From contig JABIWF010000012.1 of NCBI GenBank assembly GCA_018701175.1, positions 1 through 40,008 on the forward strand: a DNA stretch of 40,008 nt. Reading direction: 5' to 3'. Source of the stretch: Methanobacteriota archaeon. Its GTDB lineage: Archaea; Thermoplasmatota; Poseidoniia; Poseidoniales; Poseidoniaceae. Under the pieces are notes generated by a model that ran no database searches, was not told where the DNA came from, and worked only from the letters and a program-made list of their open reading frames with translations. Below are positions 2,988 to 31,988 of this stretch, piece by piece. Both the position numbers and the translations under genes were made by a program. Numbering within the stretch: the stretch's first letter is position 1; each line of letters opens with the position of its first letter.

Positions 2988-3242
2988 ATGGTTAAGCCAG
3001 CACGACTCCACACACGATTTGAAAGAGCTCGAATTATCGGTGCACGCGCACTCCAAATAGGAATGGGCGCTCCGCTCTACGCAAACGAAGAAGTCCTACG
3101 TGATGCGTTTAGAGAAGAACTCATCTCCCTCTACGGCCTTGAAGAAGCATCGGTACGCTTCGTTCTCGACCCACTCAAGATTGCGTTGTATGAGTACGAA
3201 CACGAACTCATACCAATCGATATCGACCCGCACGAAGACTAA
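2988..3242 (+). CDS. rpoK: DNA-directed RNA polymerase subunit K (RpoK/Rpb6) with internal insertion
   Basis: Small RNA polymerase subunit that stabilises the clamp and assembly. The diagnostic block [21 protein letters not shown] lies at residues 9-29 and the C-terminal block [19 protein letters not shown] near 61-79. Between them sit about 30 residues (around [22 protein letters not shown]) that typical archaeal RpoK lacks; the family is usually 55-65 residues and this one is 84. I chose ATG 2988; the ORF track starts at a GTG three codons upstream. The gene stands alone rather than in a ribosomal-protein cluster. Its 3' end overlaps the convergent tryptophan dioxygenase by 4 bases. Confidence 0.9.
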
Positions 3243-4339
3243 TCTTCGTTTCGTGCAGCAAAGCCGTAGAATGCGGCTTGTTTGACATCTGGTAATGCAT
3301 CTCTTTTTACAAGCAATGTGCGTACAGCCCACAAATCAACGAAGACCCTGTACTTTGTTGTAGCATCGAGGTAATCAACACCGCTGGAACCACCAGTACC
3401 CATGCGGCGTCCAATCATTCGCTCAACCATTCTGGCATGAGCTGAACGGAACAAGATCATGGATTGCTCTAGTCCGACAAAAGAGTCAATGAGTTTCCGA
3501 GGCCATGAAAGCAAAGGCAATTCACGGTAAGATTCGATGAACAAAAGACCCGCCCTGGAACGAGAAACTACGCCATCCGGCCTCAAGAAGTGTTCAGCCT
3601 GTTCTGTTGATGCCTCTATTCGGGCACGGACTGGTGCTTCCTCCCCGTGGCCTATAGCCACGATGTGTGCTATCACTTCCTCTCCGTGTGACCTCATGGC
3701 TTCCAAATGCCGGTCAACAAACGCAGTAAGGACATCTGCGTCGTCTTTTGAGCCTGCAAGAGAGCCGTTTATCGGCGTTCGAGCGAGCCAAGCAGAGAGT
3801 GCATCACACAACGATGGTTGGTTTGATGTTGCTTCAAAGTCTGACAGAACTTGAGCAGTTACTTTCCCTTCTTGAGCTAACTTCTTCATGTGCAGCAAAG
3901 GGTCCATGCCACCCATCCGTTGTGAATTGTCAAGACCAAGCAAGACTTCGAGTTCTCGCATTTGCCAAGATTCAAATCCGGATGAAGTCCCAAGTTTGTC
4001 ACGGAAAGCAAGGAAACCTTGAGGCGTAAGTGTTTCCATCACTTTCCATTGGTTGGAAAGTAACCGGAAGATTTCTGTGACTCGGTCTAAATGATGGACC
4101 ATTTGCGGCAAGATTTCTTCAGGAACGTGCTCCTGATTAAGCAAGAGATGGGCTTCTTTCAATTCCCGAAGAATCAATTTGAACCACAATTCAAACGCTT
4201 GATGAACCACAATGAAATGTTGTTCATCGTTTGAAGGCGCAGGACTGTATCCTTCGGGCCCGTCTTGCAGAGAGAGCAGCTCATTCAATTGAAGATACCC
4301 TCCGTAAGTCATGCGGTGTGATGGTGTGCCTTCGGCCAT
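3239..4339 (-). CDS. kynA: Tryptophan 2,3-dioxygenase
   Basis: Heme enzyme that opens the indole ring of L-tryptophan to N-formylkynurenine, first step of the kynurenine route. 366 residues from ATG 4339. Family features in order: [16 protein letters not shown] (about 41-56, with active-site His46), [16 protein letters not shown] (91-106), [13 protein letters not shown] (112-124, with Arg113 that contacts the substrate carboxylate), and [23 protein letters not shown] (His301 as probable proximal heme ligand). It is longer than compact bacterial forms (around 280-300) because of an inserted stretch near 180-250. No kynurenine formamidase or kynureninase is visible nearby. Upstream is a short spacer without an obvious promoter. 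Confidence 0.95.
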
Positions 4340-6080: not shown

Positions 6081-7328
6081 TCAGTCGGAGTCACTGTTCG
6101 ATAGCGACTCCAAATCTGGAGCGTTTGGAAGGCTGTTCACGGCTTCTAGGTATTCTTCAAGAGAGACTGCACCATCACCGTCTTTGTCTGCCTGCTTGTG
6201 TATGACTTCAGCTTCTTCGACTGACATACCGGTAGCAGTGGCGAGCTCTTCAACTGAAAGGAGGGCGCTTCCGTCCATATCTGCAGAGGCAAAGCGATTT
6301 GTGAGTGATTCAAGTTCGGATTCAAGTTCACGCTTGATTCGTTCTCTTTCTGCTTGAGAAGAGACCTCAAAGGAACAAACCTGCATGATTGGGTCGCCGG
6401 CACTCAACTCAGCAGAGAACTCGGTTGTGTCACCGCCGTTGTTCACCATGATTTGGAACTTTGTTGGGTCTTTCGAGCGCCGCTTCTTGTGCTTCTTGTA
6501 ATAGTGAACATAAACGTGATATTGCCCGCCAGGAGCAGTACCCTCTGGCCAGAATACATTTTCTACGGGCTTACGAGTTTCAGCCCTTACGTTAGCGTCA
6601 ACATCCAACTCGCCACCGCAAGCCGAAATTTTGTTTCCTCCGTGAATACGTTCACCTGAAGGGCACACAATGTGCAGATCAAGATCGTTGTAATTGTTCC
6701 ACATCAATGAAACCTGGACGTCGGATGATTTTGCTCCTTCGCGCTCTAGGCGTGCCTGAAGTTCTTTGATGGCCTTAGAATTGGCGTTATTTGATGCAAC
6801 TTGTTCCTGTTGAGCATTTGCAATCTCTGCGAGACGAGCCTCTTCAGAAGCCAAAAGGTCCTCTTGGCGTTTCAACTCACGTTCTGCTGCAAGACGAGCC
6901 TCTTCTTGTTCTCGACGGCGCGCCTCATCTTCTTCATCACGAATTTTCTGAGCGGCTTCGTTCGCCAAACGGGACTCCTCAAGGGCCGCCAGACGGGCAT
7001 CTTCAGCGATTTGCTTCCGTTCTGCTTCTTGTTGTGCCCGTGTTTGATAGAGTTGCTCACGTGCCAAACGCTCTGCATCTTCAAGCGCAAGACGGCTTGA
7101 AATTGCTTCTTGCCGACGACGGCGGTTTTCGACAATCGCGAGTTTACGGTCAATCTCTTTTTTTGCATTTCCGAAACCAGGTGCTCTGGTTCCGTAGCGA
7201 AGACCTTCAGGATTCATACCTTGACGCACTGATACAGTAATGTCTTTTCGGGTGTAAATGTACCATAAACCATAACAGAATCCACCGCCAAGAGCGAAGG
7301 ATGCCACCAGATACGTTATCTCCATCAT
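6081..7328 (-). CDS. Membrane-anchored coiled-coil protein with DUF2135-like domain and EF-hand pair
   Basis: 415 residues. In order: an N-terminal transmembrane helix (about 5-25), a basic linker, and a long charged coiled coil rich in Ala/Glu/Arg (about 60-195). Next is a domain beginning VSLMWNNYNDLDLHIVCPSGE (206-226), with GNKISACGGELDVDANV (231-247) and ENVFWPEGTAPGGQYHVYVHYY (256-277), resembling the YfaP/DUF2135 beta domain. Last comes an EF-hand pair: a less regular loop at 350-361 (DMDGSALLSVEE, lacking an oxygen ligand at one position) and a canonical loop DKDGDGAVSLEE at 381-392. One helix with long coil and two binding domains suggests a calcium-responsive structural or signalling protein; whether the soluble part faces in or out is not clear. 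Function unknown. Confidence 0.75.
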   Translation of the reverse strand: MMEITYLVASFALGGGFCYGLWYIYTRKDITVSVRQGMNPEGLRYGTRAPGFGNAKKEIDRKLAIVENRRRRQEAISSRLALEDAERLAREQLYQTRAQQEAERKQIAEDARLAALEESRLANEAAQKIRDEEDEARRREQEEARLAAERELKRQEDLLASEEARLAEIANAQQEQVASNNANSKAIKELQARLEREGAKSSDVQVSLMWNNYNDLDLHIVCPSGERIHGGNKISACGGELDVDANVRAETRKPVENVFWPEGTAPGGQYHVYVHYYKKHKKRRSKDPTKFQIMVNNGGDTTEFSAELSAGDPIMQVCSFEVSSQAERERIKRELESELESLTNRFASADMDGSALLSVEELATATGMSVEEAEVIHKQADKDGDGAVSLEEYLEAVNSLPNAPDLESLSNSDSD

Positions 7329-13320: not shown

Positions 13321-14247
13321 TCAGTCTTCTGCACGCTTCTCTCGGTAGCTTTGCAAATGGGTTGGGAGATTGAGGGCAAACAATCCACCGACTACACTGA
13401 AAACAAAGAACGTGCCAAGGGCAACACCGTAAACTGAAATCAATTCCACAGATTCTTCCATTCGAGTAGCCGTATCTTTGGAAAAGATTCCAACAAAGAA
13501 CGGTAGGATGGAGTTTGCTGAAAGAACGATGGTTGCAAGGATGGTTGCGATAATTGGGTTGATGAGAAGAGAGCGGTGATACTTGCCGACAATCTTCTTT
13601 GGATTCATGACATAAACTTCGTTGGTTCGGATACTGGTATCGAGCATCGAGTAACGCAGAACACCGTTGGTTAACTCGAAGTACATGATGAGAAGAACAG
13701 CGTAAACGACTACGAGACCTGAGAGCAGGAAAGGCTTGTCTTGCAAACCAAACATATCGCTTGAAAGCGTAACTTTCGATGATGCGAATCTCAGAATGGC
13801 GAGAATGAACAGAAGGTTACTAACAAGGGTGAATCTACCATCTCGTTGGAAAGTCCCCCAGAATCCGGTCCCTGTAGCGCCTGCAATAATCACCAATTGG
13901 AGTATCGTTGCAAGTCCAAGGCTTCCAGTGAGCATGTACCAAATCGTACCGTCTGGCGGAGAGATGATGTACGTCATCAAGGAAAGCGCTACGAGAACTC
14001 CGTAGACACCGAGTTGAAGGTTCTGAACCATTTTGTCTGGTGGCAAGAACTTCGTTTTAGGGACGAGCGGGCCACCGAGCAGACTTTCGATGAACGAAGG
14101 GATTTCGACTTCTGGAATTGCGTCTTTTGGGATTTCACTCCCAACGCCGACTTGACCTGCTGCCTTCTTACGTGATGGAGCGGATGAACGTACAGTTTTA
14201 CCGTCGTACAGGTGAGCAGTGTCGTTAGATGGTCGTGATACGGTCAT
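13321..14247 (-). CDS. Polytopic membrane protein, last gene of MoxR-DUF58 operon
   Basis: 308 residues from ATG 14247, with GAGGTGA as ribosome binding site formed at the stop of the DUF58 gene. The first 75 residues are soluble and polar (SRKKAAGQ, then an acidic and proline-containing stretch). Five or six hydrophobic helices follow (about 78-97, 104-124, 137-154, 169-188, 229-248 and 275-296). No domain recognised. MoxR/DUF58 clusters often contain membrane proteins thought to work with the AAA+ and vWA-like parts, so this may be the membrane partner. That is inference from position only. Confidence 0.7.
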   Translation of the reverse strand: MTVSRPSNDTAHLYDGKTVRSSAPSRKKAAGQVGVGSEIPKDAIPEVEIPSFIESLLGGPLVPKTKFLPPDKMVQNLQLGVYGVLVALSLMTYIISPPDGTIWYMLTGSLGLATILQLVIIAGATGTGFWGTFQRDGRFTLVSNLLFILAILRFASSKVTLSSDMFGLQDKPFLLSGLVVVYAVLLIMYFELTNGVLRYSMLDTSIRTNEVYVMNPKKIVGKYHRSLLINPIIATILATIVLSANSILPFFVGIFSKDTATRMEESVELISVYGVALGTFFVFSVVGGLFALNLPTHLQSYREKRAED

Positions 14248-14256
14248 GATCTCACC

Positions 14257-15570
14257 TCAGAATCCTCTTGCCCCAGCAAGTGCGGTTGAAAGGAGCATGT
14301 CAGGCTCCCAATCCATAATATTGACACCAAGTCCGCGAAGTTCACTTATGAGAACGTCACGTTCTGTTTTCATAACTTCATATCCGGTTCGGTCGATGCG
14401 TCGGGCATCGAATTCAAACTCGAGAGAAGATGGAGTCAATACTGTGACATCGAAATCACGAGCGCGGAAGTCACGCAACGCATTGACGATGGTTGGGTCA
14501 TCTTCGAGATTGGACAAGAAGATGATTGGACTACCTTTGTTGATGTGCGGCATGATTCTGTTCACAACAACCTGCAGCGGTATGTTTCCACGTGCGACTG
14601 CACCTGCAAGTTTGGTTAGAATCACGTACAATTGTTTTTTACCCGTATCTCTGTCAACGCTCACGACTTCATCGCCGTATACAATGACACCTACGGAGTC
14701 ACGCCGGCCGAGGAAGTATTTGGCAAGTGATGCAGCGGCCCGAGTTGAGTAAACCAATGCATTACGAGACACTGGGCCTGTTTCAGCAACAGACCGCGAA
14801 TCCACAATGATGATGATATCAGAAACAGCGTCACGTTCTCGTTCATTCACCATGAGTTTTCCAGATCGTGCGTATGCAGACCAGTTGATGGCACGGAAAG
14901 AGTCGCCTTCGAAGTATTCTCTCAATGAGTAAAACTCGGAACCTGGGCCTGGTTGTCGAATGTTAACAGCACCCGTGAAAATCTTAGGAACACGGGATTT
15001 TACGAAGGTCTCTTTGAGGTCTTCCATTTTCGGGAACACAAGGAAATCATTGTAGACATGCAATTCTTTTTCCTTGTGGAACAATCCGAATGGGTCTTGA
15101 ATCCTGACAGCCACAGGACCAACACTGTAGAAACCTCGAAGTGGACATTCAACGGTGTATTCAATCAACGTTTCACGGCGTGGACCAAGTTCCATCAAAA
15201 TATAATTTGCACCGTCTTTGATGCGCATAACTTCAGGAACGCGGTCTCGAACTTCCAAAATTTTAGCGAGCGATGAATGGTTTTGCATTCTCAGCGTGAT
15301 GTTTAATTCCCCGTCTTCAAAGATACGAGCACTCGACATTTTCCGCATTGCGGTTACGCTGTTGAGTGCCGCACCTTCCTCACCCGACCATTCTTCTGCG
15401 CGTCGGCCAGTAGCCGCAACGTCAGCGTGACCACCGAAAAGGGCAGCCCAAGTCAGGAAGACAAAGATGACAACTGCAATCGTAACGAGCTGGGAGTTTC
15501 GCAGGGTTAGACCGAGCAAGTACATGGCAATAGCCAAGCTACCGAGCATAGCAGATTTACGACTCCACAT
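14257..15570 (-). CDS. DUF58 domain protein (vWA-like), MoxR partner
   Basis: 437 residues from ATG 15570; this ATG is preceded by GAGGTGA, whereas the ORF track GTG at 15579 overlaps that site. Two N-terminal transmembrane helices (about 5-40) are followed by a cytosolic part. The DUF58 signature is GSEFYSLREYFEGDSFRAINWSAYARSGKLMVNERE. A vWA-like region follows with IIIIVDSRSVAETG (a DxS-type metal-binding start), YGDEVVSV and PIIFLSNLEDDP. Proteins of this family are generally encoded with MoxR AAA+ ATPases and may act as adaptors or assembly factors for membrane or cell-envelope complexes. It is the third gene of the operon starting at DUF4350. Confidence 0.9.
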   Translation of the reverse strand: MWSRKSAMLGSLAIAMYLLGLTLRNSQLVTIAVVIFVFLTWAALFGGHADVAATGRRAEEWSGEEGAALNSVTAMRKMSSARIFEDGELNITLRMQNHSSLAKILEVRDRVPEVMRIKDGANYILMELGPRRETLIEYTVECPLRGFYSVGPVAVRIQDPFGLFHKEKELHVYNDFLVFPKMEDLKETFVKSRVPKIFTGAVNIRQPGPGSEFYSLREYFEGDSFRAINWSAYARSGKLMVNERERDAVSDIIIIVDSRSVAETGPVSRNALVYSTRAAASLAKYFLGRRDSVGVIVYGDEVVSVDRDTGKKQLYVILTKLAGAVARGNIPLQVVVNRIMPHINKGSPIIFLSNLEDDPTIVNALRDFRARDFDVTVLTPSSLEFEFDARRIDRTGYEVMKTERDVLISELRGLGVNIMDWEPDMLLSTALAGARGF

Positions 15571-15603
15571 CACATTCACCTCAAATTCAGTTTAGAACTG
15601 TAA

Positions 15604-16779
15604 TCAAACAGTTGGTACAGGAACTTCTCGTAGAATCGCTTGAATCACTTCACCGGACTCAAGGCCCTTGATTTGATGCTCAGGCTTGAGAATAATTCGG
15701 TGTGCGAGTGCGAGTTCGGCAATTGCTTTGATGTCATCAGGAGTGACGAAGTCACGACCACGAAGTGCTGCAGCAGCACGGGATGTCTTCAGCAATGCTT
15801 GGGAACCACGAGGTGAAGCGCCGACCAAAACACGAGGATCTTCACGAGTTCGGGATACAACTTCGACCATGTACATTCGAAGAGCAGGGTCTACGTAGAC
15901 GAATTCACATGCTTGTTGCATGTTAATCACCATTTCAGGGTGAGTAATAACTTCGACTTCGACAGCGTCCTTTCCACGAGAAATACGACGGGATAGAATC
16001 TCGTCTTCGTCTGCACGGTCAGGGTATCCGACGGACATCTTGAACATGAAACGGTCAAGTTGTGCTTCAGGGAGCGGGTATGTACCTTCTTGTTCGACAG
16101 GGTTTTGAGTCGCCATAACAATGAACGGAGCTGGGAGCTTGTGAGTCACTGTACCAATGGTAACTTGCTTCTCTTGCATAGCCTCAAGCAAAGCAGCTTG
16201 AGTCTTTGGAGGAGCACGGTTAATCTCGTCAGCGAGCAGAAGATTACAGAACAATGGTCCTGGCTTGAATGTAAATTCACCCTTCTTTGCGTCATAGATG
16301 TTCGTACCTGTGATGTCAGCAGGGAGCAAGTCAGGCGTAAATTGAACACGCTTGAAGTCGCAACCTAGCGCATCAGCGAAGGTGTTGGTCATCAGTGTCT
16401 TAGCCAGACCTGGGTAATCTTCGAACAGAAGGTTACCATTGGAAAGAATGTTGATCAAGACGTTATCGATAACGTGTGCTTTACCGATAATTACTTTCTG
16501 GACTTCGGCAGCGATTGCACTTGCAATCGAACCGACGGCCTTCAACTTCTCTTTGTTTTCTGGGCTGGTTTGGTGCTTCGGTTGAACCGGAGCGGCCGGT
16601 GCTGGCGCTGCTGGGGCTGGTGCTGGCGCTGCAGGTGCTGCTGGCATAGGCGCTGGTGCTGCTGGCATAGGTGCCGCAGGCATTGGCGCTGCTGGTGCAG
16701 GCATTGCAGGTGCTGCTGGGGCCACAGGAGCTGCTGGCGCTGGCGCGGGCGGGGCTGCTGGGGGGGCGGGGGGTTGCAT
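15604..16779 (-). CDS. MoxR-type AAA+ ATPase with Pro/Ala-rich N-terminal tail
   Basis: 391 residues from ATG 16779, with GGAGGA 8 bases upstream. Residues 1-67 are almost only Pro and Ala with a few Met and Val; the ATPase follows from about 75. Walker A is FEDYPGLAKTLM (119-130, the MoxR form of GxxGxAKT), Walker B LLADEINRAPPKTQAALLEAM (181-201), and then MATQNPVEQEGTYPLPEAQLDRFMFK, typical of MoxR. The lid domain ends near HRIILKPEH. MoxR proteins remodel partner complexes, usually with a vWA/DUF58 partner, which is the next gene. The Pro/Ala tail is unusual for the family and may be a flexible linker or tether. Confidence 0.93.
   Translation of the reverse strand: MQPPAPPAAPPAPAPAAPVAPAAPAMPAPAAPMPAAPMPAAPAPMPAAPAAPAPAPAAPAPAAPVQPKHQTSPENKEKLKAVGSIASAIAAEVQKVIIGKAHVIDNVLINILSNGNLLFEDYPGLAKTLMTNTFADALGCDFKRVQFTPDLLPADITGTNIYDAKKGEFTFKPGPLFCNLLLADEINRAPPKTQAALLEAMQEKQVTIGTVTHKLPAPFIVMATQNPVEQEGTYPLPEAQLDRFMFKMSVGYPDRADEDEILSRRISRGKDAVEVEVITHPEMVINMQQACEFVYVDPALRMYMVEVVSRTREDPRVLVGASPRGSQALLKTSRAAAALRGRDFVTPDDIKAIAELALAHRIILKPEHQIKGLESGEVIQAILREVPVPTV
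16582..16773 (-). repeat. GC-rich degenerate repeat encoding Pro/Ala tail of MoxR
   Basis: Degenerate short repeats of GCTGCTGG/GGCATAGG type on the plus strand encode APMPAAP- and APAPAAP-like units on the minus strand. Base composition here is far more GC-rich than the surrounding sequence. Such tracts vary in length by slippage. Confidence 0.7.
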
Positions 16780-16798
16780 GTCTATTTTCCTCCAATTA

Positions 16799-18379
16799 TC
16801 AATTTCCCCAACGACGTATTTGTGGGATAACTTCCCTCAATTCTTCGTTGGAGTAGGAACGGTTGGAGCTGATGAGCTCAACCAAGCGCGGGTCACGAAC
16901 CATTTGCATGATTTCCGCAGGCGTCTTACGCATGAATTCATCACGCGTCAAATCATTAAACTGTCGAACCTTCGAAAGCAATGCTTCTCTGGTTCGCATT
17001 TGGTATTGAGATGCATCCAATTTCTTTGGACGTTCTCTAAAGCGAGTAAGGTCGAATACGTGGCGCCAATTTTCTTTTTCTGGAACCACCATGATTGCAA
17101 TGGCAAGCAGTGCGAAGAGATTGAGAATAATGAGCCACTTGAGGACAACATCGCTGGTCAAGAGTACGACTGCACCCATTGCTTCGGTGAAAGGAGATGA
17201 AAGAGCGCTGGAGACGTGACGGCTTTCATCAAAGACAACATAATGCTCCGAAGGCGATCGGCGGATGGTGTTCGAAAGTTCTGCATTGTCAAATTCCATC
17301 ATGTCGTAAATCAGTGCGCTGAAATATTTGCTGTTTCCGTCCCAATTCGTGTCTCCTTGTGCCGAGGAGAGTCCGTTCGGGTCGGTATCCCAACAGTTGT
17401 GCCCATTTTCGAGGTATGCGGGCGAAGTACATTGGAGGTAGCCGTTCTCTTGAGCCAAGTCTGCATCCCAAAGGTGGTTTGCAAGAACTGAGTGGTCTGA
17501 TACGAAGACGATTGAACCTGTGACATCAACTTCTCCAATGTCGTTGTTAGGCATCTTGTCAAGGACGTTCTTAACAGGGTAGTCTATTCGAATAATGAGT
17601 CCAGTCATTCCTTCGCCCAAGGTAGGGTTGAGATCGCTGTCGATGTTATCTGGGAATTTTGCAACTCGAGCAGATGTTGATGCTGCTGCAAGGATGTTCA
17701 CTTCTCGGTTCGAATCGGTTTGTTCATCGAGAACTTGGATTGCTGTAGGCCGATGGAAGAGAACGGGCATTCGGCAGTTGTCGATTTGAGCGTTCGCAAC
17801 TGCTTCATCAGAACATGGAATGAGTTTTTCATCACCCATTTCACTTATGTTTTGGTTGACGCTGGCAGCCGACCAAAGACGACGATAATCTGCAGGTTGG
17901 ATAGCACCCACTGAATCCTCGACTTCGTAGTATCGCTGGTCGTCATAGACCGGGGCGTCGAAATATTTCACGCCAAACTCCTCCGCAACAAGTTGAGCGT
18001 TGGTCGAACTTGCAGCTAAGATAACCTTGCCACCTTTTTCAGTGACGAAATCGTGGAGTGCTGATGCTTCTGCAGCGTCGAATGGCTTTTCTGGACCTGC
18101 AATAATGAGCATGCTTCGGTGTGGATCATTCCAGTCGTTCACTAACATTGGCGTTGACATGGTGTTTGCGATGCTGTAGTCTTTGCCTTCGAGGACTTCT
18201 CTCATCTCAGTCAACTGTTGCATAGAATACTCATCGGCTGCGTTGTTGTAAGGGGAGAGAACGGTTGTCTTGTCCCAACTTACCGCTGTAACAACGATGA
18301 TTGACAAAAACAGGGATGCGACAAAGCCGACTTTGAGCCAAGTTTCAATAGAAATCTTGCCTGAATTTTCTTCTGCCAT
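16799..18379 (-). CDS. DUF4350 domain membrane protein, first gene of MoxR operon
   Basis: 526 residues from ATG 18379, chosen because AAGGAGTGA lies directly upstream and a TATA box stands at a fitting distance; the ORF track start at 18448 lies upstream of that TATA box. A transmembrane helix at about 13-33 is followed by a large domain. It contains MLIIAGPEKPFDAAEASALHDFVTEKGGKVILAA, the part typical of DUF4350 (a GATase-like fold), then long segments with few charged clusters. A second helix lies near 425-450 (LKWLIILNLFALLAIAIMVV), and a basic cytoplasmic tail of about 75 residues ends the protein. DUF4350 proteins commonly occur beside MoxR and DUF58, as here. The biochemical role is unknown. 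Confidence 0.82.
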   Translation of the reverse strand: MAEENSGKISIETWLKVGFVASLFLSIIVVTAVSWDKTTVLSPYNNAADEYSMQQLTEMREVLEGKDYSIANTMSTPMLVNDWNDPHRSMLIIAGPEKPFDAAEASALHDFVTEKGGKVILAASSTNAQLVAEEFGVKYFDAPVYDDQRYYEVEDSVGAIQPADYRRLWSAASVNQNISEMGDEKLIPCSDEAVANAQIDNCRMPVLFHRPTAIQVLDEQTDSNREVNILAAASTSARVAKFPDNIDSDLNPTLGEGMTGLIIRIDYPVKNVLDKMPNNDIGEVDVTGSIVFVSDHSVLANHLWDADLAQENGYLQCTSPAYLENGHNCWDTDPNGLSSAQGDTNWDGNSKYFSALIYDMMEFDNAELSNTIRRSPSEHYVVFDESRHVSSALSSPFTEAMGAVVLLTSDVVLKWLIILNLFALLAIAIMVVPEKENWRHVFDLTRFRERPKKLDASQYQMRTREALLSKVRQFNDLTRDEFMRKTPAEIMQMVRDPRLVELISSNRSYSNEELREVIPQIRRWGN

Positions 18380-18384
18380 TTCTA

Positions 18385-18424
18385 TCACTCCTTGTGCGGT
18401 TGCCGTAGTCTCAACGGTATAAAC
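18385..18424 (-). promoter_or_regulatory. Promoter and ribosome binding site of DUF4350-MoxR operon
   Basis: On the minus strand, GTTTATACC (18424-18416) is a good archaeal TATA box. A start about 26 bases downstream would fall near 18394, giving a leader of around 15 bases that contains the ribosome binding site AAGGAGTGA (18393-18385) before ATG 18379. This separates the operon from the upstream molybdenum hydroxylase genes. Confidence 0.6.
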
Positions 18425-18529
18425 AACCGTCGGAACATCGCTCCACACTTAATGCTTGTTCATGCGTGATTTGAAGCCACAGGTTAATAGGAGAGGAAAA
18501 AGGTTAACCCTAGTAGTGTTCAGTTGAGT

Positions 18530-27860: not shown

Positions 27861-30800
27861 ATGCCTGCTCCTCGACGTTCCACCCCACGACGTACCGCTC
27901 CCGCACCCGCTGTTGAGCTGCTCGAAAAAACAACAGTTCCGTCATCGAGCGGGATGATTTACAACGATACTTCACGTGTTGAACAACCAATGGTTATACG
28001 AAGCCCAGGCAATCCTATTGATTCAACAAGTAGAGACTTAATGAGATTCTCTCAACTTATCATGATGGGTATTGCCCTTGCTGCGATATGGGGTGGTTTG
28101 TTCAGCATCGCCTTTGCCGAGGATGCGTCAAACGATGATTTCCTCATCTTGTTCTTGGGAGGATTTCTATCAGCAGGGATTGCCATTGGATGGATTGCGG
28201 CCCAAAGTAAGAAGAACGACTATGTTCTCTATGAAGTTCAAGATTACATGCTTGGCATAGGCCTCTTCTTTGCCACTGTTGGAACCGTTTGGGGCTCTCG
28301 ATGGTTGATAGGATTCGTAACTGGAGAGGGATGGACTGAAATCTTTGGTACGGCTGCTGAGTTTAATTCTGGCGTATTGATTGATGCCACTACTGGAGAA
28401 GAAGTCGATTGGCATCCGAATGCCAAGGCCATCTATGTGCAAACAGCAGCACTCCTAGCCCTCATCTTTGCTGAACTTCAACTCTTCAAGCGATTCAAAG
28501 GAGCGACTGGATTTGGTAGGGCAGTCTCCGCATACGCTCCTATTCTCGTGTTGGTCGCTGCTGGGATGGGGCCATGGATGCGGTGGACTGACAATGTCAT
28601 TTCTTACGAAATGGGCATATCGCTCATTTTGCTTTGTTTTGCTTCAATGGAACTGGCGCTGCGCTCCAACAAAGCGCTGAATTTCGTGGTCGTAGCAGTG
28701 GTCTCTGGACTAACTCCAATTCTGTTTGAAGTCTTCAACACCAACGCAGAAGTTGGCGGAGAAGGTGGCGCATTGTCTCTTCTCGTGTTCATTATTGCGC
28801 TTCAAGGCTACTACGCTTCACGGCAAGAGTTGCGCTCTGAATTAATTCAAAAGGCGTCAATCGTCTTGGTAGGTGAAATTGTATTTGCAATGTTTATTGC
28901 TCGAACTCAGGATCTTAACCTTCACCTTGGCCCAGTGAAATCTGCAGAACTTGGCATAGACCATCTCTTTGGTTTGAGCGTTGCACTGTGGATTGCTGTT
29001 CTCGCTTTTTACTTCCCTGCAGTACAACAACGCAGAGTCCCATGGATGCCAATTGGCCTAGCAGCAGCCTTGGTCGTATTACCAAATGACGGTAGTGTAA
29101 TTCCGTGGGCAGTTTCTTTGTTGATGATTCCATACATGCTCTTCATCGCAAAAGCAACACGCCGATGGGTGGCAGATTATACATTCGCAGTGCTCGCTGT
29201 TGCTTACTTCATGACCGATGTAATAGCGAACATCGAGAACATTCCGCTCTCAGGGACTTTTGGATACGATGGGATGCAGGTCATCATACCCCTCGCACTG
29301 TTCGTCATCTCTGAATACGCTCGACGAACGGACAAAATATCTTCTTGGACACATCTTGTCATGCTTGCTGCTCTTGTCCTCTCAAGAACGATCATTCAAG
29401 CTGAGGATTGGTTTATGCCTTGGATCTTTATCGGCTATTTGTTATATCTCGCTCGGGATTCGTTCTCGAACTTATCCGAAGAAAGCGAATGGAAGGAGAA
29501 GATGCAGGCCACTCTCGTCGTGATTATTGCCAATGCTTCAATGATACTGCTCGCCGTTCTCGACAGGCTTGACTTGCCACAATTCCTCGACACTGAGGTG
29601 TTACCTGAGTACTTTAATTATCAAATTTTTATTCTCGGGATTGTCGGATACCTCGCACTCTATAAGGCCCGAACTATAGAATTGGATGCAGGTCTTTTGT
29701 TCAACTGGACCAAGCGTTTAGCCAGCAAAGCACCGATGTACAATCCTGAAACAAACACATGGACAACACCTGACCAAGATACTGAACAGGAAGTAGCGAA
29801 TTGGCAAGAGATGAACAGTTGGAGTCAACTCACCCGAATTTCCCTTATTGTTCCTTTCTTTATGATGAGCTTTAGTATTGTCACAATGTCAGATCCGTGG
29901 AATGGTTTTGATACCGATGGTTCTCAATCACTGGTTACGTATCCATGGATTTTGATGCTCTTAGCACCTGTTTACGGATTGGTCCATGAAATTCGTGGAA
30001 TGGAAATCATTTCCTCTACAGTCCGTTCAGCAGGCGTCTGGGTGTTGTTTGCAATAACTGTTCCAGTATCAATTAGTTTCAATGTTGTTCGAAGTGAGAT
30101 GCTTCAAATCGAACAATATGTCGATACTGCAATCATGCCAGTACCAATACTTCTCGACCTTATTCTCCTCAGTGCTCCGCTGTATGTTAACAGCCTCATC
30201 GCAAAACGTGGAATTGACACAGAACACTTGTCTGAAAACGCAGACCGTTGGGCAATGCTCGGTTTGATTGCGTTTGCGTGCCTTGACACATCCGGTGGAT
30301 TGTTGTTGATTTCTATGCTCGGTCTTGTGACTGTTCGAAGTGTCCGACACCGACATGTCCTCCCATTGCTGCTCTCTCCAGCTGTGTTCATTCTCTTGCA
30401 ATCAACCTGGTTGAATTACGCAGGAATCGCTCGAACCTTGTTTGAATCAGCCGATACTCTCTCCTACGACTTCACCGAGGACGGTTTCCTCGGCCTACCA
30501 CGGATTGGAGGCCTCATTATCGCTGGCCAAATGTTGTACGCTATCATCATGGACAGTCGAATGGTGAAAAACAGTTCATCGAACCGTGAACCATTACCAT
30601 GGTACGGTTTGTGGGGGTGGGCACTGGTTGGAATTCTAGCCGCATCATCAAGTATAGGTTGGATACCTGCAATCTTCTTCGCTTATCTCATGATAAACGC
30701 CTGGCTTTCGGGAACACTCAACTCGTTGCCTGCGCTTCACTTGGGATTCTTGATCAGTCTGATTGTTGGAATGGCAGTGGAAGAAGTCGCTGATACCTGG

Positions 30801-31988
30801 GCTTTGGCCTTCTCGTGGAGCGCTTTAATCACTGGATTTGCAGCACTAGGATTCAGCGCAATGGGCAGCAATGGAATTCTATTCAAGAACGTTCCAAAAG
30901 CCCGAGAAGAGTTCTACACTGAACAGAAGAAATCGGAGATCATCAATACACTCTACGTCGTCACTTACGTTCTTTTCTTGGTAAGCTACGAAGCATTCAA
31001 TGGAATTGGTACCCTGGTCGGTGCAATTATTCTCACTCGCGACATCGTTACCAAGGGTTACACAAACGCAGTCTTCTTTGTCCCGGCGATTCACGCACTT
31101 GCGTTGATGAACTTACTTGTTCAGACCGATTTCGATATGATTCAAGAGGGCATAGTACTCGGTTCAGTTCTCCTTATCGAAGGACTGATTGTATCTTGGC
31201 TTTCCTTGCAAAACGACAGAGTATACGATTTCAAATTCTTTGAATGGGAAAACGATGATGCGTTCCTCGACTTCATTGACCGACTCGGAATCGCTGGAGT
31301 TTTGTTTTCATTGTCTGGAATCTATTTCATATTTGCAGATTTCAATCAAACAACGGTTGGATGGCTGCTGGCAACAGCAGTACTCATGGCAGTCGGCATT
31401 CAAGGGTACTCGCCCGAAAATGATGCGCGCTGGCGTCGCATAATCGGTGGCTATGGCTCAATATTTGCTTTCGTCGGCTTTAGCAGCGGAATTGAAAGCA
31501 ACACCATGCAATCCCTCTCCTGGATTGGAGTGGGACTCATTGCATTGGGATGGGGATTCATGATGATGCAACGGCTCGAAAATGATGAACAAATCTATCA
31601 CAGTTCAGAAGAGGCAATACCTGAAGGCTTGGCAATGAACGAAGCGGTTCTCATTGCAGATGAATCAGTTGAGATACCTGAGCCAGTGCTTGAAGCGGAA
31701 GAGGAAGAATCTGTGGAAGATGAAGAAGACTTTGATGAAGCAAATGAACAAGAACTTCCTGAACCTGTACTCAAGAAAACAACCTCAAAGGCCATTCCTA
31801 AGCCTGTCGTCGAACAATACGTACTTCCAGCTGCCATCGATACTGGATTAGGATTTGAGATTCAGCTGCCACCCGGGAAACTTGAAGCAATTGTGAAATC
31901 GATTCGCTCGACTCCTCATGAGGGTTACAAACCGATTGTTGGCATGCATGAAAATGGAAAAATCGTCATTGATTGGGTTGAAGTTTAA
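27861..31988 (+). CDS. Giant polytopic membrane protein (about 36-38 TM helices), unknown function
   Basis: 1,375 residues from ATG 27861; a TTG at 27837 (ORF track) would add eight. After about 60 N-terminal polar residues, hydrophobic helices run almost without break to about residue 1245; I count around 36-38. The loops are short and no catalytic motif, ATP-binding site or known transporter signature is seen. The last 120 residues are soluble: an acidic, Glu-rich stretch (EEEESVEDEEDFDEANEQ) and then a small compact segment ending GKIVIDWVEV. It could resemble large DUF2339-type membrane proteins, but I cannot confirm that. It lies between two S8 proteases on the opposite strand; its stop abuts that of the downstream protease with no gap. 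Confidence 0.8.
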   Translation: MPAPRRSTPRRTAPAPAVELLEKTTVPSSSGMIYNDTSRVEQPMVIRSPGNPIDSTSRDLMRFSQLIMMGIALAAIWGGLFSIAFAEDASNDDFLILFLGGFLSAGIAIGWIAAQSKKNDYVLYEVQDYMLGIGLFFATVGTVWGSRWLIGFVTGEGWTEIFGTAAEFNSGVLIDATTGEEVDWHPNAKAIYVQTAALLALIFAELQLFKRFKGATGFGRAVSAYAPILVLVAAGMGPWMRWTDNVISYEMGISLILLCFASMELALRSNKALNFVVVAVVSGLTPILFEVFNTNAEVGGEGGALSLLVFIIALQGYYASRQELRSELIQKASIVLVGEIVFAMFIARTQDLNLHLGPVKSAELGIDHLFGLSVALWIAVLAFYFPAVQQRRVPWMPIGLAAALVVLPNDGSVIPWAVSLLMIPYMLFIAKATRRWVADYTFAVLAVAYFMTDVIANIENIPLSGTFGYDGMQVIIPLALFVISEYARRTDKISSWTHLVMLAALVLSRTIIQAEDWFMPWIFIGYLLYLARDSFSNLSEESEWKEKMQATLVVIIANASMILLAVLDRLDLPQFLDTEVLPEYFNYQIFILGIVGYLALYKARTIELDAGLLFNWTKRLASKAPMYNPETNTWTTPDQDTEQEVANWQEMNSWSQLTRISLIVPFFMMSFSIVTMSDPWNGFDTDGSQSLVTYPWILMLLAPVYGLVHEIRGMEIISSTVRSAGVWVLFAITVPVSISFNVVRSEMLQIEQYVDTAIMPVPILLDLILLSAPLYVNSLIAKRGIDTEHLSENADRWAMLGLIAFACLDTSGGLLLISMLGLVTVRSVRHRHVLPLLLSPAVFILLQSTWLNYAGIARTLFESADTLSYDFTEDGFLGLPRIGGLIIAGQMLYAIIMDSRMVKNSSSNREPLPWYGLWGWALVGILAASSSIGWIPAIFFAYLMINAWLSGTLNSLPALHLGFLISLIVGMAVEEVADTWALAFSWSALITGFAALGFSAMGSNGILFKNVPKAREEFYTEQKKSEIINTLYVVTYVLFLVSYEAFNGIGTLVGAIILTRDIVTKGYTNAVFFVPAIHALALMNLLVQTDFDMIQEGIVLGSVLLIEGLIVSWLSLQNDRVYDFKFFEWENDDAFLDFIDRLGIAGVLFSLSGIYFIFADFNQTTVGWLLATAVLMAVGIQGYSPENDARWRRIIGGYGSIFAFVGFSSGIESNTMQSLSWIGVGLIALGWGFMMMQRLENDEQIYHSSEEAIPEGLAMNEAVLIADESVEIPEPVLEAEEEESVEDEEDFDEANEQELPEPVLKKTTSKAIPKPVVEQYVLPAAIDTGLGFEIQLPPGKLEAIVKSIRSTPHEGYKPIVGMHENGKIVIDWVEV

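Follow-up and report, generated by a model that had tools for sequence, protein, structure and literature searches.

A giant polytopic membrane protein of the Poseidoniales, possibly a very distant relative of DUF2339/Arc3A

Among described proteins, the closest counterparts of the protein examined in this study are those of DUF2339/Arc3A. Arc3A of Pseudomonas aeruginosa has 35 predicted transmembrane (TM) segments and no enzymatic residues, the number of TM segments varies among members of its family, and it protects Pseudomonas by preventing the accumulation of lysophospholipids during phospholipase attack, with lysolipid sequestration being suggested by the authors (PMC8926400). The role of Arc3A has been confirmed against lipase effectors (PMC12663445). 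Our analysis concerns a gene found within a 40,008-nucleotide stretch of DNA (hereafter, the window) from an archaeon of the family Poseidoniaceae. The order to which it belongs, the Poseidoniales (Marine Group II), is uncultured and abundant in the surface ocean, and the nature of its membrane lipids is still unsettled (PMC6962369).

The initial annotation of the window had described a protein of 1,375 residues composed almost entirely of membrane helices, and both the open reading frame and the topology confirm this. The frame opens with the ATG at 27861 on the forward strand, contains 1,375 codons without an internal stop, and closes at 31988. Upstream, eight residues could potentially be added by an in-frame TTG (27837), and the predicted start is the ATG itself, judging from the M-x-AP-x-R beginning that is conserved among relatives. 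The gene is real, conserved, and under strong purifying selection, with dN/dS values of 0.09-0.12 between the window gene and four close relatives. As for the concern that it might be broken in related genomes, the frame is open in nearly all of them, the exception being a single MAG (G029) in which the gene is spread over several frames, most likely due to an assembly error. A different MAG (G202) carries the giant gene twice (L143 and L144), with one copy on a 5 kb contig, and the second copy is possibly either contamination or a paralogue. The features discussed below are collected in Table 1.

Table 1. Positions of the giant gene and its features in the window.
Feature	Position	Strand	Basis
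Giant polytopic membrane protein of 1375 aa with 36-38 predicted passes	27861..31988	+	ORF, hydropathy, AF2 model
N-terminal cytoplasmic segment, aa 1-66, basic, Pro/Arg-rich, conserved start M-x-AP-x-R	27861..28058	+	alignment, charge map
Block aa 231-345 (TM6-TM9), weak profile match to DUF2339 TM4-5 region	28551..28895	+	profile-profile
R392-x-P-x-x-P-x-G-L-A and R434-x-W-V, aa 392-437, most conserved cytoplasmic motifs	29034..29171	+	
Broken helix with D809-x-S-G-G813 at the break, aa 793-828	30237..30344	+	conservation; AF2 model
Last TM helices, aa 1151-1240, W1191-R-R motif; region matching DUF2339 C-terminus	31311..31580	+	profile-profile, shuffles, decoys
Acidic cytoplasmic linker rich in Glu/Asp, aa 1241-1327, differing among relatives in length and sequence	31581..31841	+	
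Compact C-terminal domain, aa 1330-1375, ~45 residues	31848..31985	+	

Carriers of the giant gene are named in GTDB records as Candidatus Poseidoniaceae or Poseidoniales and as Euryarchaeota MAGs. Almost all of the Poseidoniaceae genomes that were searched contain an orthologue. All listed genomes of this family had a match in a phylum-wide sample, while true matches beyond it were confined to the sister family (f2), which we infer to be Thalassarchaeaceae; none were found in this sample outside of the order Poseidoniales. Three incomplete genomes from the genus of the window gave no match. In the sister family, a family-specific profile detected the gene in 5 of 11 genera (g2, g4, g7, g9, and g124) and not in g3, g5, g6, g8, g10, or g123. 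Weak matches in three other genomes (G048, G049, and G213) were taken as chance, as they read as an MFS-like protein and NADH dehydrogenase-like subunits.

No motif had been recognized in the protein originally, and our searches bear this out. Neither Pfam nor NCBIfam matched the window protein, no model from either collection matched more than one or two members of its family, and those only at marginal E-values, while a PDB sequence search returned no significant chain match. Foldseek with the AF2 model against PDB listed no similar membrane-protein fold among its matches, the best of which were mostly alpha-solenoids (the TPR of SKI3, karyopherins) having TM-scores of ≤0.28, too weak for alpha-solenoid to be used as the name of the fold, and a BFVD fold search found nothing. 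There was also no clear match to a described large membrane family of known role, only a probable distant relation to DUF2339.

The comparison with DUF2339 that the initial annotation had proposed identified it as the closest relative found, with a colinear profile match that is strongest at the C-terminus. The Pfam DUF2339 model (PF10101) matched nothing in the window genome at E ≤ 10, and single DUF2339 sequences compared with the window family produced noise and nothing significant. Our DUF2339 profile was built from 13 sequences, ten plasmid-borne bacterial and three from Thermoplasmatota; the plasmid query returned nothing at E 1e-5 and the limit was relaxed to collect sequences. Over the whole length, the profile comparison was weak (8.7%, for the best local match only), and its top score was reached by 3 of 160 shuffles. 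The top two matches were colinear, pairing C-terminus with C-terminus and TM6-7 with the TM4-5 region of DUF2339. After both families were divided into 130-column windows (180 cells), the C-terminal pair, containing the last two helices, ranked first with a score of 37.9 (probability 88%, E 3e-6), the next best cell having 23.5, and over the tests of this block the probability was 80-88%. Unrelated membrane decoys (calcium exchanger and aquaporin) reached a maximum of 21.0 in 144 cells. With columns shuffled in groups of five, 150 times per block, in windows selected after earlier scans, not one shuffle reached the real score of the C-terminal block (z ~5.3) or that of the TM6-7 block (20.4 versus a null mean of 12.3, sd 2.3; z ~3.5), the latter with an HHalign probability of only 4%. 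The TM1-3 block did not exceed its null, as 25 of 150 shuffles scored as high. From these profile matches, the giant protein is probably a distant homologue of DUF2339, and because the Pfam model misses it, we refer to it as a relative rather than as a tested member.

Besides the colinear C-terminal two-helix match (88%) and the weak one near TM6-7, both are giant polytopic proteins with very many TM helices and no catalytic signature, and in several cases an acyltransferase gene is nearby (in Sphingobium, this analysis; PMC8926400). In contrast, most of the length of the giant protein has no detectable similarity to DUF2339, the K and D conserved at the C-terminus of DUF2339 are absent from it, and it differs in its basic Pro-rich N-terminus and in having an extra acidic tail and a C-terminal domain. 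Within the same phylum, the Thermoplasmatota DUF2339 proteins L041/L120 (1159 aa) and L118 are likewise giant multi-TM proteins, with L120 clearly above the Pfam cut-off and L118, taken as a whole protein, just below it. The DUF2339-like L118 protein (L118:439-5481, + strand), from another Thermoplasmatota lineage, has 1,681 residues and is longer than that of the window.

A family-averaged hydropathy scan yielded 35 helices, to which the AF2 model adds helices that are short or broken (395-408, 793-828, and 1020-1062) for a total of 38 passes, which agrees with the ~36-38 counted originally. The AF2 model of residues 56-1245 has a pLDDT of 82 and a pTM of 0.61. In the 38-pass map, which was chosen partly with the charges in view, K+R account for 16.8% of cytoplasmic loops and 3.8% of outside loops, and this segregation predicts that both termini are cytoplasmic. 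The acidic cytoplasmic tail that had been described is likewise supported as a Glu/Asp-rich linker predicted to be inside by the charge map, and the compact soluble end that follows is present at ~1330-1375 (pLDDT 89). Among charged or polar residues, R147, Q194, R392, R434, R722, and D809 never vary in the 54 sequences compared, R1192/R1193 come close to this, and the R392 and R434 motifs are invariant or nearly so. Most of the conserved arginines are located at the cytoplasmic helix ends of the 38-pass map. The D, G, and G of D809-x-S-G-G813 are all invariant, and the AF2 model places this motif where a break separates two helices of half length.

D809 and the GG after it are invariant and lie at a helix break, as is seen in many transporters, and the full-length comparison with DUF2339 was weak, both of which favor an unrelated transporter or channel of giant size, specific to the order, in which the DxSGG break and the conserved charges would form the conduction or substrate site and the likeness to DUF2339 would be a convergence of short hydrophobic C-terminal motifs. 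We consider this unlikely, since there was no match to a transporter family or, among the PDB matches listed, to a solved membrane-protein fold, and the 36-38 predicted passes are far above the helix count of common transporters, as the initial annotation had pointed out. PIEZO channels have about 38 TM helices, and a mechanosensing or membrane-shaping scaffold of Piezo-like size, i.e. a curved array of TM hairpins signaling via the acidic tail and C-terminal domain, would suit the 38 passes, the weak alpha-solenoid matches (as expected of sequentially stacked hairpins), and an intracellular end domain tethered by an acidic linker. However, the resemblance to PIEZO is in helix number, with no significant PDB chain match and no Piezo among the fold matches listed, and the low TM-scores of the solenoid matches render the fold reading itself weak, making this highly unlikely.

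The suggestion that a smaller membrane unit was duplicated again and again to give this protein was not supported and appears very improbable. The N-terminal and C-terminal halves scored 32.1 against each other, compared to as much as 34.7 for block-shuffled controls, and window-against-window self-comparison of the profile revealed no significant repeat. The one point in its favor is a single long, low-scoring off-diagonal self-alignment (63 versus 43.5 for the reversed profile), but its offset drifts over 67-113 columns and the repeat period is therefore not constant; in the absence of a fixed period, a very ancient duplication may still apply.

The C-terminal domain, unlike the acidic linker preceding it, is conserved, with the consensus GFxIRLP...IxxSIxxTPHEGYKPVV...NGxIxIxF and a predicted beta-beta-alpha-beta-beta arrangement (pLDDT 89) that had no fold match in PDB. 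It occurs once per genome, as no convincing second copy was found in 16 genomes. One clade in the genus of the window (L022-L029) has a giant protein lacking the domain, which was also not found in any frame of the flanking DNA of these loci. Since it is missing from this clade, the domain is accessory.

In Poseidoniaceae, the giant gene resides in a block containing xanthine dehydrogenase subunits, a PlsC-like acyltransferase (PF01553, two genes upstream of the giant gene), and an S8 protease, followed by another S8 protease, an oligoribonuclease-type exonuclease, XdhC, and a MobA-like transferase, and lastly by genes for an acyl-CoA dehydrogenase, a Na/Ca exchanger, and an aquaporin. The names of the aquaporin and of the large xanthine dehydrogenase subunit were assigned by reading the sequences. 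Part of this block is kept in two loci of the sister family (L139 and L140), whereas in g2 and g4 the giant gene is located elsewhere among other neighbors (L141, L142, and L147). The giant gene is divergent from one S8 protease and convergent with the other, and thus they do not form an operon. Its adjoining of S8 protease genes in nearly all Poseidoniaceae loci compared, often on both sides, would suit a scaffold for export or anchoring at the envelope that acts together with the two flanking subtilases, both of which have apparent N-terminal hydrophobic segments, but the protease pair is not retained in the sister-family loci L139-L142 and L147 and the block also contains unrelated metabolic genes, which leaves this hardly probable at all. 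The neighboring acyltransferase is suggestive as a hint to the role of the giant protein. A link by co-occurrence was rejected, as acyltransferase orthologues (g5, g7, g9, and g123) do not co-vary with the giant gene (g2, g4, g7, g9, and g124), and the same applies to a link with motility, as archaellin and the giant gene are both present in g4, g9, and g124, with only the giant gene in g2 and g7 and only archaellin in g5.

Several other genes of the window were also of note. A putative tryptophan 2,3-dioxygenase, identified by eye, is encoded at 3239-4339 (- strand), an enzyme that is unusual in archaea. At 13321-18448 (- strand) there is a row comprised of a MoxR-type AAA ATPase, DUF58, DUF4350, and a TM protein of no assigned family; the MoxR/DUF58/DUF4350 gene set is common and poorly understood. 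A membrane-anchored coiled-coil protein with an apparent C-terminal EF-hand pair (DMDGSALLSVEE, DKDGDGAVSLEE) is encoded at 6081-7328 (- strand), and calcium-binding domains have been mentioned in Poseidoniales modules (PMC9258230).

Overall, we favor the giant gene as the Poseidoniales version of an apparently non-catalytic polytopic protein, very distantly related to DUF2339/Arc3A and serving as a lipid-handling array, to which we assign a probability of roughly 0.4. By analogy with what has been proposed for Arc3A, its most likely role would be to handle lipids as a membrane scaffold without enzymatic activity. The ~38 helices would stack mostly with their sequence neighbors to create a large membrane-embedded array, and R268, R392, R434, R722, and R1192/1193 at the cytoplasmic helix ends, together with D809-x-S-G-G813, could provide a lipid head-group site. 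Such an array would hold, shield, or hand over aberrant or nascent (single-chain) lipids, while the acidic linker and end domain might recruit a soluble partner, though the combination of lipid handling with partner recruitment is doubtful. Marine Group II have no G1P dehydrogenase and do have PlsC homologues, and ester or chimeric lipids are therefore possible (PMC6962369). The lipid-handling proposal fits both this lipid genetics and the cytoplasm-facing arginines. A bolder extension of the Arc3A analogy, which we regard as decidedly unlikely, is that Marine Group II carry an archaeal Arc3A-like system handling single-chain (lyso) lipids, that at least part of their membrane lipids is built on acyl esters, and that the DUF2339 superfamily reaches across the lipid divide between bacteria and archaea, with an adaptor domain in the cytoplasm that is new.

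Being near-universal in Poseidoniaceae and missing from entire sister genera makes this 38-pass protein a prime candidate for group-specific envelope biology. If the lyso-lipid reading is true, at least part of the membrane lipids of Marine Group II would be acyl-ester based. Likewise, if the link to Arc3A is true, a family so far known from bacterial phospholipase defence would gain a branch in Marine Group II, and a single gene would make the question of lipids in these archaea testable.
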